Below the pieces are notes generated by a model. It saw nothing but the letters and a program-made list of their open reading frames with translations, was not told the origin of the DNA and made no database searches. This document shows positions 26,624-30,299 of a DNA stretch of 64,000 nucleotides, piece by piece; the first letter of the stretch is position 1, and each line of letters starts with the position of its first letter. Source of the DNA: Natrinema saccharevitans (lineage in GTDB: Archaea > Halobacteriota > Halobacteria > Halobacteriales > Natrialbaceae). The translations under genes were made by a program, and so were the position numbers. Location: NCBI RefSeq assembly GCF_001953745.1, contig NZ_LWLN01000001.1, forward strand, positions 3,286,001 to 3,350,000, given 5' to 3'.

Positions 26624-27628
26624 ATGGACGCGCCGCTGTGGACCGAAACCCACGCCCCGGAGCTGGCCGAGTTGCCACAGGACGACGCCCGCGAGTACTT
26701 AGAGCGGGCCGTCGAGGAGCCGATCAACCTCCTCCTGCAGGGCCCGCCCGGGAGCGGGAAGACCGCCGCGGCGCGCGCACTGGCCCGCGAGGCCCACGCC
26801 GATCCGGACAACGACTTCGTCGAGATCAACGTCGCCGACTTCTTCGGCCGGACCAAGACCGAGATCACGAACGACCCCCGGTTCGAACACTTCCTCGTCG
26901 GCCGCTCGTCGATGTCGAAACGGGACATGATCAATCACGTCCTCAAGGAGTCCGCGAGCTACGCGCCCGTCTCGGGCGGCTACACGACGATCTTGCTCGA
27001 CAACGCCGAGGACGTCCGCGAGGACTTCCAGCAGGCCCTGCGCCGGATCATGGAACAACACCACCGGACGACCCAGTTCATCGTCGGGACGCGCCAGCCC
27101 ACCAAACTCATCCCGCCGATCCGCTCGCGGTGTTTCCCCGTTTCCTTCCCCTCGCCGACCAGCGAAGAGATCGTCACCGTCCTCGAGCGCATCGTCGAGC
27201 GCGAGGGCGTCGACTACGACGACGACGGCCTCGAGTTCGTCGCGGGCTACGCCGACGGCGACCTCCGGCAGGCCATTCTCGCAGCGCAGGCGACCGTCGA
27301 GGACGCGGGCGAACTCACGATGAGCGCGGCCTACGAGACCATCGGCGAGGTCGGCCTCGAGGACGAGATCGAGTCCATGCTCGACGACGCCGAGGCCGGC
27401 GACTTCACCGACGCCCGCTCGACGTTAGACGACCTGCTCGTCGACGAGGGGTTGGACGGCAACGAGGTCCTCGAGGCGATCCTGGCGGTCGCTCGCAAGC
27501 GGTATCAGGGCGAGCAACTCGCCGAGATCCACCGGCTGGCGGCCGACGTCGACTTCGAGATGCACGAGGGGACCAGCGATCGGCTTCACGTCTCGGGGCT
27601 GCTTGCGGAACTCGGCCGGGACGGGTAG
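26624..27628 (+). CDS. Replication factor C small-subunit homologue (clamp-loader AAA+), 334 aa
   Basis: An AAA+ protein of the RFC family that helps load PCNA (also encoded here, 57838-58581) on DNA. Walker A is GPPGSGKT (about residue 41), the SRC motif is IRSRCFPV and sensor 2 is GDLRQAI. The C-terminal collar runs from about 220 to 334. The Walker B stretch reads LLLDNAED-like (TILLDNAEDV), lacking the DEAD/DExx glutamate of standard small subunits, so this may be a divergent, weakly hydrolysing subunit. Haloarchaea have several RFC small-subunit paralogues; I do not assign rfcB or rfcC. A partial duplicate of its last 25 codons is at 29441-29515. Confidence 0.9.
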   Translation: MDAPLWTETHAPELAELPQDDAREYLERAVEEPINLLLQGPPGSGKTAAARALAREAHADPDNDFVEINVADFFGRTKTEITNDPRFEHFLVGRSSMSKRDMINHVLKESASYAPVSGGYTTILLDNAEDVREDFQQALRRIMEQHHRTTQFIVGTRQPTKLIPPIRSRCFPVSFPSPTSEEIVTVLERIVEREGVDYDDDGLEFVAGYADGDLRQAILAAQATVEDAGELTMSAAYETIGEVGLEDEIESMLDDAEAGDFTDARSTLDDLLVDEGLDGNEVLEAILAVARKRYQGEQLAEIHRLAADVDFEMHEGTSDRLHVSGLLAELGRDG

Positions 27629-27744
27629 CGTCACAGCGGACAAATCGACCGATCAATACTGTTTTTGCGTCAACTGATCGGATACGACGGGCGAGTACCG
27701 GCCGGACGGTCTGATCACCAGTACGACATTCCGGTATTACATTT

Positions 27745-27822
27745 TTAGATAAATATACTAGAAATATCTTATTAGATGTTAGGATTTTTATCTGAAATAT
27801 AAAAATACTATCTTATAGATAG
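27745..27822. promoter_or_regulatory. Very AT-rich promoter region with inverted repeats
   Basis: In contrast to the GC-rich surroundings, about 27735-27850 is strongly AT-rich. It holds TTAGATAAA (27745-27753) facing TTTATCTGA (27787-27795), and a perfect palindrome CTATCT-TAT-AGATAG (27808-27822) that contains a TATA-like stretch about 35 nt before the TTG start at 27849. It is the likely promoter of the halocin-like gene, perhaps with an operator. Confidence 0.5.
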
Positions 27823-27848
27823 CAGATGAAAAAGACGATACTTATAAA

Positions 27849-28928
27849 TTGAACCGACGAGAGATCTTGCGGAGAACTGCTGCGAGCAGTGTCGGTGCGG
27901 GATCGGCGTTGAGCACCCTTTTCGGGTCTGTAAGCGCCGAGAAGACGACTCGGGACGATCTCGACCAGATCGAGGAGGCGCCCGGAGTGCGGAAGATTCT
28001 CACTGAACTCGGCGTTCAGCGCCTTCCCGGACCGGGACGCGCCGAAAAACGACGAATCGAAGACGGCGGACGCCTCACCGAAGGTGAACTCGTCACGTGG
28101 AAGATCGAGATCCGCCCGTACGGTATCTTGCACGCATTCGAATACGAGGAGCGAATTGGTGCGGTATTCACGTTCGATCTCGACACTGCGAGGATCCCTG
28201 CAGGGTACTCGATGGCGGCGGAAGCGAACGCGTCGCTGGGTGCCAGCGGATCAGATCTCGTTTTCAGTCGCAACGCCACCGATGCCGAAACTGAACACGT
28301 ACTGTCGGTGATCGACGTCGACGGCGACATCGACAGCGCGAGAGTACACGCCACGACGGCGGCCAACGGATTCCGGGCTACCGTGCAGGTTGCGTCCGAA
28401 GAACCGGACGAACTCGATACGCGCGAGTACGTCATTTCCGTCGGCCCTGACTTCGACCCGCGGTCTGAGTCGATGTCGGACGTACTCACCGTTGAGGACG
28501 ACGCGGCTGACATTCTGACAGTTGAACCGCTCGTCCAGACGGCTGCGATTTCGTTCCCCAATCCCAAGGATATCGTTCTCGATGTCATCGAGAGTTGGCT
28601 CGTCGACAAGGTGGTCTCGGAAAGCCTCGAGTTCCTGGGGCGCGAATGTGATTCCTGTGGTGACTGTGCGAACGTCATTATCAGCATCCTAGACGGTTGC
28701 TCCCTGTGTAGACCTCTCATGGGAACCGGCGCATCTGGTGTCGGTGCGATACTGTTCGTGACGTGTTACTATGCGTGGTGTGGCAAAGTGTCGGACAAGG
28801 TAGAGTGCGCCGCCTGTTTCGCATGCCTGCTCACGAACGAAGATCCCGATATCCCCGACGCGGCGGATGCGCTTGCGTGGGTGTGGGACGAGTTGCCGTC
28901 TCCTCCGTCGCGCCCCTCCATCCCCTGA
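27849..28928 (+). CDS. Halocin C8-like secreted protein precursor (Tat signal, ten-cysteine C-terminal domain), 359 aa
   Basis: The TTG start gives a Tat signal (NRREILRRTAASS, then a hydrophobic run to about residue 30). Residues 31-266 have no Cys and form a soluble beta-rich pro-region. All ten cysteines are in residues 267-326 (267, 270, 273, 284, 287, 306, 311, 320, 323, 326), as pairs and CxxC groups around a hydrophobic Gly-rich stretch (GTGASGVGAILFV). Halocin C8 has a Tat signal, a pro/immunity region and a C-terminal peptide with ten Cys, so I infer a related antimicrobial peptide precursor. The tail ends in a Pro-rich segment (ELPSPPSRPSIP). An AT-rich promoter and the location in a decay zone suggest horizontal gain. 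Other Cys-rich secreted proteins remain possible. Confidence 0.6.
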   Translation: MNRREILRRTAASSVGAGSALSTLFGSVSAEKTTRDDLDQIEEAPGVRKILTELGVQRLPGPGRAEKRRIEDGGRLTEGELVTWKIEIRPYGILHAFEYEERIGAVFTFDLDTARIPAGYSMAAEANASLGASGSDLVFSRNATDAETEHVLSVIDVDGDIDSARVHATTAANGFRATVQVASEEPDELDTREYVISVGPDFDPRSESMSDVLTVEDDAADILTVEPLVQTAAISFPNPKDIVLDVIESWLVDKVVSESLEFLGRECDSCGDCANVIISILDGCSLCRPLMGTGASGVGAILFVTCYYAWCGKVSDKVECAACFACLLTNEDPDIPDAADALAWVWDELPSPPSRPSIP

Positions 28929-28985: not shown

Positions 28986-29342
28986 TCAATGATTCCGATT
29001 GAGGAGGTCGGGCTTCACAAGTATTGCCACGCCGTAGCCGATCGAAAAGAGACCGAGGTAGATGGTCCCGGAACGGAGGTGACCCACCGCACCTAACCAA
29101 AACGCGATCCATCCCGCTACGGCCAGCAGCGCGCCGACGAGTCGACTGTTCTCGGAACTGTCCATGAGTACGTAGACCAGGACGAGGAGGAACCCAGCGG
29201 CAAAGTACCCGTCGTATTCGGTATTGTCTACTCCCGTTACGAGACCGATCAGCCACGCCAGAAGGGCGACGAGGAGTACGGCGACGAGGATCCACTTGAG
29301 ACCGTCGTCGAGCAGACGTTCTCTAACGCCGTCCCGTTCCAT
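28986..29342 (-). CDS. Four-helix membrane protein of unknown function, 118 aa
   Basis: Four hydrophobic helices are visible: WILVAVLLVALLAWLIGLV, GYFAAGFLLVLVYVLM, LVGALLAVAGWIAFWLGAV and IYLGLFSIGYGVAILV. It is convergent with the halocin-like gene, 57 bases apart. Because many bacteriocin loci encode small membrane immunity proteins, an immunity role is possible, but it is on the opposite strand and there is no direct evidence. ATG at 29342. Confidence 0.72.
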   Translation of the reverse strand: MERDGVRERLLDDGLKWILVAVLLVALLAWLIGLVTGVDNTEYDGYFAAGFLLVLVYVLMDSSENSRLVGALLAVAGWIAFWLGAVGHLRSGTIYLGLFSIGYGVAILVKPDLLNRNH

Positions 29343-29440
29343 AATTCAACTCCCGGAGGATACTTGATAACTGTTTCGTCCCGACTCGGGACGGCGGTTC
29401 CCGATGCCGAACCGACGGCGCTGGTCGTCACGGCATCGAG

Positions 29441-29515
29441 TTCGAGATGTAGGTTGGGACCAGCGACCGGCTCCACGTCTCGGGACTGCTGGCCGAACTG
29501 GGCCGAGAGGCCTGA
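29441..29515 (+). pseudogene. Degenerate second copy of the RFC-like gene 3' end
   Basis: These 75 bases align without a gap to 27554-27628, the last 25 codons of the RFC-like gene (59 of 75 identical by my count). The peptide SDRLHVSGLLAELGR is the same. Differences in the core 17 codons are all synonymous third-position changes, but a TAG replaces the His codon at 29450. So this was once a coding copy, not a recent duplicate. Weaker similarity may extend a little upstream. Confidence 0.85.
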
Positions 29516-29553
29516 CTGATGACGGTCCGGGCAGACTGTGTACCCATTCCCGA

Positions 29554-29890
29554 TCAGTCGGTCCCGTTCTCGAGTCGTTCCATCGCGTTCGGTTTCCAGA
29601 CGTACAGGCAGCCGATCACGAGGCAGATTCCGCCGGTGCTAATCGCATCGAGCGATCGCTCGGTTCCGTGGGCGGTCAGCCCGATGCCGACGATGCCGAC
29701 CCCGCAGCCGAGACGAGGACGCCGAACGCGCGACTCGAGAGGGAGACGCACCGCGAGAGAACCAACGCGAGCGCGAAGGGGATCGCCGCGGCGAAGGTGA
29801 TCGCCAACTCGCGGTCCAGCCGCTGCCCGTCGGCGGCCGTCAGCAGGGAAAGCACCGCGGCGGCTCGCGGGCTGGGGTCTCTCGACTCAT
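29554..29890 (-). pseudogene. Frameshifted small membrane-protein gene
   Basis: Reading from the ATG at 29890, the protein starts MSRETPAREPP. It then continues only after a frame change as AVLSLLTAADGQRLDRELAI, then a helix (FAAAIPFALALVLS), then a second frame change leads to LGCGVGIVGIGLTAHGTE and a last helix (GICLVIGCLYVW). Together they make about 110 residues with three or four helices, typical of haloarchaeal membrane proteins. Two frameshifts make it a likely pseudogene. Confidence 0.65.
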
Positions 29891-29978: not shown

Positions 29979-30299
29979 ATGCCAACGCTCCTCGAGACCC
30001 ATATCCGGAATCGCTTTCGCGTCCAGCCCAATCACTACCTTCGAACGTAAGTCGGTGAACGAATTCGCCCGAGTGCCGGGCGAATTCGGGTAACCGTTAC
30101 GTTCGAAGGTAACGCGAACAACAACGACACGCTCCGCGGCGGCAACCTGCTGAAGCGGCTCGACGAGGTGAGCGCGATGTCGGCGATGCGCTTTGCCGGC
30201 GAGACCTGCGTCACCGCCCGCGTGAACGAACTCGACTTCTCGGTCGAGACCGAGAAAGGGGAACGGCTTCGGGACCGCGTCCACGAGATCGAGGACTGA
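29979..30299 (+). pseudogene. Acyl-CoA thioesterase (hotdog) pseudogene
   Basis: The start MPTLLETHIRNRFRVQPNH and the later piece NNNDTLRGGNLLKRLDEVSA, then MSAMRFAGETCVTARVNELDF, match the acyl-CoA hydrolase family (usual form ...LHGGNLMKW.DE...AMRFA...). A 76-bp palindrome (30036-30111) splits the gene and brings in a TAA. After DFS the sequence jumps to VETEKGERLRDRVHEIED, the usual C-terminus, so about 60-70 codons in the middle are deleted. The His of the LHGGN motif is Arg. Clearly non-functional. Confidence 0.85.
30036..30111. mobile_element. Family 3 palindromic element (MITE-like), 76 bp
   Basis: Outer arms TACCTTCGAACGTAA/TTACGTTCGAAGGTA pair perfectly (15 bp); inner arms CGAATTCGCCCG/CGGGCGAATTCG pair perfectly (12 bp) around AGTGC. 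It interrupts the thioesterase pseudogene, and the bases AC occur on both sides (30034-30035 and 30112-30113), a likely 2-bp target duplication. Taking it out restores the reading QPNHANNND. No transposase is encoded, so it would need one in trans. Confidence 0.82.

Follow-up and report, generated by a model that had tools for sequence, protein, structure and literature searches.

The question raised by this locus is whether an open reading frame (ORF) of Natrinema saccharevitans encodes a halocin C8-like antimicrobial peptide precursor, as a sequence-only reading of the window (the whole stretch of 64,000 nucleotides analysed here) had proposed, and whether the product of the small membrane gene next to it might be an accessory immunity factor. 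The structural observations of that reading have been confirmed, i.e., the 359-aa ORF has a twin-arginine (Tat) signal (MNRREILRRTAASSVGAGSALSTLFGSVSA), there is no Cys in the 236 residues of its middle part (31-266), and the only ten Cys all fall in residues 267-326, at positions 267, 270, 273, 284, 287, 306, 311, 320, 323, and 326 (spacing 2-2-10-2-18-4-8-2-2). This pattern is not due to chance, because all ten Cys are kept in L009, a homologue from another genus (Natronolimnohabitans sp. A-GB9) that shares 89% identity with the window precursor, and because the pattern recurs across a protein family. The dN/dS values calculated against L009, about 0.16 for residues 31-255 and 0.07 for the C-terminal part, indicate purifying selection on both parts. 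Searches of the precursor against Pfam, NCBIfam, PHROGs, PADLOC, and PDB sequences yielded only Tat signals and chance-level matches, the Cys-free domain having no match in Pfam, NCBIfam, or PDB, and the other family members also match only Tat-signal models. AlphaFold models made from the window protein and L009 (two sequences) were unusable, with mean pLDDT values of 34 and 45. The features of the locus are collected in Table 1.

Table 1. Features of the precursor locus, in window coordinates.
Feature	Coordinates	Strand	Remarks
rfcB-like clamp-loader gene, resident at the cassette site	26624..27628	+	334 aa; in 29/29 genomes of the genus
Left direct-repeat copy (rfcB 3' end)	27549..27623	+	Turns from host-type to cassette-type inside the repeat
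Upstream region with AT-rich promoter-like stretch	27629..27848	+	TTTTTATCT and AAAATACT kept in L009
Possible upstream coding extension	27819..27848	+	Open frame; ATA aligns with the L009 ATG
Secreted precursor ORF	27849-28928	+	359 aa; TTG start
Twin-arginine signal peptide, residues 1-30	27849..27938	+	NRREIL motif, hydrophobic stretch, SVSA end
Cys-free N-terminal domain, residues 31-266, probable propeptide	27939..28646	+	Conserved across the protein family
Ten-Cys domain, residues 267-326	28647..28826	+	Bridges inferred from concerted Cys losses across the family
C-terminal tail, residues 327-359	28827..28925	+	WVWDELPSPPS-type motif common to the closest homologues L099, L101, L107, L111
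Membrane protein, candidate immunity protein	28986..29342	-	118 aa; 3-4 hydrophobic segments; convergent with the precursor
Right direct-repeat copy	29436..29515		Host sequence resumes here; matches the uninterrupted site of L158

The AT-rich promoter described by the sequence-only reading is also real, since the GC content of positions 27730-27848 is 21.8%. The TTG start is a different matter: this codon does open the 359-aa ORF, but in the alignment L009 starts at an ATG that lies exactly ten codons further upstream, at a site occupied in the window by an ATA (27819), and thus the start is in doubt. The precursor might start at the TTG or at the rare ATA, or an ATG start might have been lost recently. 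Since the start codon appears to be impaired in this genome, expression of the precursor may be weak here. The TTG, which lies ten codons downstream of the ATA and is the sole other start candidate in 27819-27851, is overlapped by a short ORF, ATGAAAAAGACG...TGA, at 27826-27852.

The precursor has the plan of a halocin-type precursor, comprising a Tat signal, a Cys-free middle part, and a C-terminal Cys peptide, but we have not found it to belong to the halocin C8 family. The family model TIGR04449 (curated cut-off, 24 bits), which the sequence-only reading had suggested as a check, gave no match with an E of 10 or less for the window protein, no match to any of 15 members of its family at E 0.05, and none elsewhere in the window's own genome. 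The positive control, a 283-aa protein of the same genus (L012) that we take, from its sequence, to be the halocin C8 precursor, scored 57.6 bits. TIGR04449 has matches in 17 of 100 relatives and, above the cut-off, in 51 of the 392 genomes of the order. When the signals were removed, hhalign comparisons of the two families gave probabilities of 0.4, 0.5, and 3.0% in tests of the N-terminal part, the C-terminal part, and the whole protein. In addition, the window peptide has neither the TIGR04449 Cys spacing 2-7-3-7-(9-14)-7-x-x-x nor that of the 2-7-11-3 subclass. Up to an E of 10, the NCBIfam model NF040679 (halocin C8 precursor-like protein) likewise did not match the window protein, the sole NCBIfam match being a chance-level Tat model. 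The absence of a model match, which the sequence-only reading had named as a ground for refutation, therefore tells against family membership, and the precursor appears to be halocin C8-like in plan without being a detectable member of that family.

Its relatives place the precursor instead in a haloarchaeal family, not previously described, for which about 47 loci were found. With an E-value limit of 1e-3 for the taxonomic family and 1e-5 for the order, one-sequence and profile searches found relatives in 22 of 125 and 51 of 392 genomes, respectively; a minority of these weak matches cover the Tat signal alone. Among the fetched loci, matches with an E of 1e-4 or less were obtained for 50 ORFs, corresponding to about 47 loci once duplicates are removed. 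In the family plan, a Tat signal is followed by a Cys-free domain and then by a C-terminal Cys domain, for which 12 Cys are ancestral. The Cys-rich C-terminal end behind the Cys-free domain is kept in each of the 50 ORFs except L111_6332, which corresponds to the first half of a gene divided between two frames. No relative was found outside the own genus in a phylum-wide sample of 295 genomes with few haloarchaea, none was detected in viral contigs, and no paper describing this family was found in the open-access literature. The gene does not behave as a housekeeping gene, since among the 29 genomes of the genus intact close members exist only in this genome and one other, with a more distant one in G005. 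Decayed copies are also present in the genus: L067 (G001) has an altered C-terminal end, L049 (G012) is a C-terminal remnant, and L048 (G023) is an N-terminal remnant. Tandem or divergent arrays of two to four members occur at L115 (G321), L120 (G069), L126 (G036), and L137 (G148), L115 containing four family members within 7 kb together with two related small membrane genes. The tandem pair of L120 shares 78% identity in the N-terminal part and 43% in the C-terminal part, a divergence that would be expected of a common propeptide followed by diversifying peptides.

The two genes look foreign in composition, their GC3 being 0.686 and 0.697 against 0.925 in the adjacent gene, which we take to be an rfcB-like clamp-loader gene from its sequence (RfcB identity across the 29 genomes of the genus, 89-98%). 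In L158, the closest relative (98% RfcB identity), the rfcB 3' end runs directly into the counterpart of window positions 29516-29863, whereas the window has about 1.9 kb of extra DNA between two copies of a direct repeat of 73-80 bp (by self-BLAST, 73 bp at 83.6% identity, 29436-29508). The repeats are chimeric: the left copy agrees with the relative as far as '...ctcggggctg' and is cassette-type thereafter, and the right copy shows the reverse arrangement. The insert contains only the precursor and membrane genes and no integrase. L009 has the same cassette in the same place between its own host-type flanks, and dS against L009 is 0.40 and 0.36 in the two cassette genes versus 0.505 in rfcB. 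Acquisition by transfer appears likelier than descent, because the cassette is missing in the three closest genomes of the genus, all of them far closer than L009. Like repeats flank L107 (44 bp, at the end of a membrane gene) and L132 (74 bp, at the start of a pelota-like gene), and flanking direct repeats were found at 4 of 49 family genes and at 5 of 632 control tiles (p = 0.002). We have discarded tRNA genes as insertion targets, as a tRNA lies nearby at only one locus. Elsewhere in the window, a 76-bp imperfect palindrome (30036-30111) folds far better than its shuffles (z = -9.3); it occurs at a single locus in the genome, is missing in L158 and inverted in L160, and looks like a flipping or recently inserted hairpin. 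The GC content falls to 48% at positions 1001-2000, compared with 67% for the window, and this stretch is possibly another insertion.

The adjoining membrane protein is real, and its proposed role as accessory immunity factor has gained support as that of a linked candidate, since the gene is full-length in only 2 of the 125 genomes of the taxonomic family, exactly the two that carry the cassette. Small membrane ORFs, defined as having at least two hydrophobic segments and at most 240 aa within 300 bp, and called by hydropathy only from mechanical ORFs, lie beside 27 of 48 family genes (56%) versus 20 of 113 control genes (18%) (p = 2.6e-6). Of the TIGR04449 genes, 23 of 44 have such a neighbour (p = 4e-5). 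These p-values and that of the flanking repeats are guides only, as independence is overstated because the family sequences are related. The remaining 44% of the family members have no such gene within 300 bp, and the same is true of the loci of halocin C8 itself and its near copies. In the window locus and the closest homologues (L067, L099, L100, L101, L106, L107, L111), the membrane gene is always downstream and convergent. The membrane partners are very diverse, but related precursors have related partners, as in the groups L099, L101, L107, L111; L113, L114, L137; and L010, L011, L013, L019. No homology was detectable between the 118-aa protein of the window and the membrane proteins encoded beside the other precursors. 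Six TIGR04449 precursors (L010, L011, L013, L019, L143, L149) have a related gene for a four-segment membrane protein of 120-132 aa directly downstream, and these genes are a candidate immunity family for halocin C8-type peptides. At this locus, the adjacent membrane protein is a better immunity candidate than the N-terminal part of the precursor.

The order of the disulfides could be approached through the Cys residues that the family members have lost. The family consensus contains 12 Cys, C1x3C2x2C3x10C4x2C5x3C6-(loop with S/T-G-x-G-A)-C7x2C8x4C9x8C10x2C11x2C12, and the members were aligned to its 12 slots with a scoring that credits every Cys on its own and is blind to pairs; the template does not accommodate about eight distant members. 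The losses come in pairs. C6 and C7 are missing in the window peptide, where Met291 and Phe303 occupy their place, and in L009, L112, L115, L117, L122, and L123; C2 and C11 in a dozen lineages; C4 and C9 in L113 and L121, and by a stricter fit also in L115_10126 and L126_5668; C5 and C8, together with C2 and C11, in L135; and C1 and C12 in L131. Among 35 non-redundant sequences (under 60% identity), the nested pairing of Ci with C13-i was the best of all 10,395 matchings, with a discordance of 5; the permuted discordance averages 35-42, and none of 20,000 shuffles reached 5. With stricter spacing rules, informed by the first run, 34 of the 35 members are exactly symmetric in their Cys loss, the sole asymmetric one (L128) having a C4x3C5 spacing that the stricter rule forbids. 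Since the nested pairing is the best of all matchings, the peptide is probably a disulfide-laddered hairpin, and hairpin bridges are the simplest cause of the paired losses; the bridges of the window peptide would be C267-C326, C270-C323, C273-C320, C284-C311, and C287-C306. Among the TIGR04449 peptides, one subclass has a nearly palindromic spacing (2,7,11,3,12,3,11,7,5), and the first and last Cys are both missing in L032, L033, and L036.

Taking these results together, we consider it likely that the region of about 1.9 kb is a mobile two-gene cassette encoding a secreted bacteriocin-type antagonistic peptide and its membrane immunity protein. The signal, the Cys pattern, the family, the paired Cys loss, the insertion at the rfcB 3' end, and the linkage and co-occurrence of the two genes were computed directly, and from them we infer the disulfides behind the paired losses, the hairpin, the cleavage, the killing, and the immunity. 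The precursor would be exported by the Tat pathway, with the Cys-free N-terminal domain serving as propeptide, and an extracellular protease would release the C-terminal part as a helical hairpin laced by the five nested disulfides. The released peptide would probably act at the membrane of related haloarchaea, and the convergent 118-aa protein would shield the producer. A bacteriocin-type precursor with a separate immunity gene is proposed because the selection on both parts, the divergence at L120, and the decayed copies fit together.

It is unlikely, in comparison, that the product is a secreted structural or signalling protein, such as an adhesin, a protease inhibitor, or a pheromone, with no toxin role and with the membrane gene as a passenger or receptor. 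Small disulfide peptides do serve many roles, and protease inhibitors are often laced hairpins, but the linkage of the precursors, here as in the halocin C8 family, to small membrane proteins of great diversity, the diversification of the C-terminal part in tandem paralogues, the sporadic distribution, and the pseudogenes are typical of toxin-immunity pairs. Equally improbable is that the precursor is a true but very divergent TIGR04449 member whose N-terminal part gives self-immunity, as reported for halocin C8. Both share the architecture, the size range, the ten Cys, and the Tat export, and TIGR04449 also shows paired Cys loss, palindromic spacing, and neighbouring small membrane genes; nevertheless, the model matches its control and not the window protein, the hhalign probabilities reach only 0.4-3%, the ancestral Cys number is 12 instead of 10 with a different spacing, and at L120 the N-terminal part barely diverges while the peptide does, which ill suits a cognate immunity domain. 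The CxxC repeats and the Tat pathway, which carries folded cofactor proteins, would suit an exported redox protein with a module that binds metal (Fe-S or zinc), but this reading is very improbable and was rejected because the Cys vanish two by two in symmetric and varied pairs, as suits bridges and not four-Cys sites, and it also fits poorly with a mobile and decaying distribution and with the lack of any match to a redox or metal domain in Pfam, NCBIfam, or PDB.

A wider reading of the bacteriocin-type cassette, to which we give an even chance, is that haloarchaea hold a large undescribed group of mobile peptide-toxin/membrane-immunity cassettes whose prevalence roughly equals that of the halocin C8 family, that both groups share one nested-disulfide hairpin architecture, that the single-gene immunity of halocin C8 is the exception, and that the cassettes insert at gene ends, duplicating them, without an integrase. 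Few archaeal antimicrobial peptides are known at the sequence level, and this reading, if true, would provide dozens of new candidate toxins, each with predicted bridges and a predicted immunity gene. According to the title of a 2005 report by Sun et al. (cited in PMC12893001), a single gene reportedly gives both halocin C8 production and immunity; the generality of this one-gene model would also come into question, because in both families a small membrane gene adjoins roughly half of the members. The 1.9-kb cassette with its duplicated rfcB end also suggests how such a weapon could spread without an integrase of its own.

Among the known systems, the closest in plan is halocin C8, for which a 283-aa precursor, a 76-aa peptide, and HalI have been described (PMC11509114), and whose C-terminal fragment is presumably freed by an unidentified protease (PMC12893001). 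ProC8-HalI and the window precursor have in common the Tat export, the Cys-free N-terminal part, and the C-terminal Cys peptide, and TIGR04449 shares with the window family the paired Cys losses and, outside halocin C8 itself, the neighbouring small membrane genes. However, there is no sequence or profile similarity between the two precursors, the ten Cys of halocin C8 have a spacing of 2-7-3-7-13-7-8-8-5 in contrast to a 12-Cys ancestral ladder in two triplets, and the L012-type locus has no membrane gene within 300 bp, whereas the window has a separate, convergent one. Halocin H4 and HFX_0892 (HapP) are secreted precursors activated by an extracellular serine protease (PMC12893001), and by analogy this activation is a plausible maturation route for the window precursor, although the active part of HapP is its released N-terminal helices (PMC12893001). 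NF040679, judged by its description and without a model match, covers proteins of the same general kind. The plant alpha-hairpinins, eukaryotic and unrelated, are helical hairpins laced by nested disulfides and have two bridges instead of five or six; as an analogy only, they have the nested-disulfide helical hairpin that is predicted for the window peptide.
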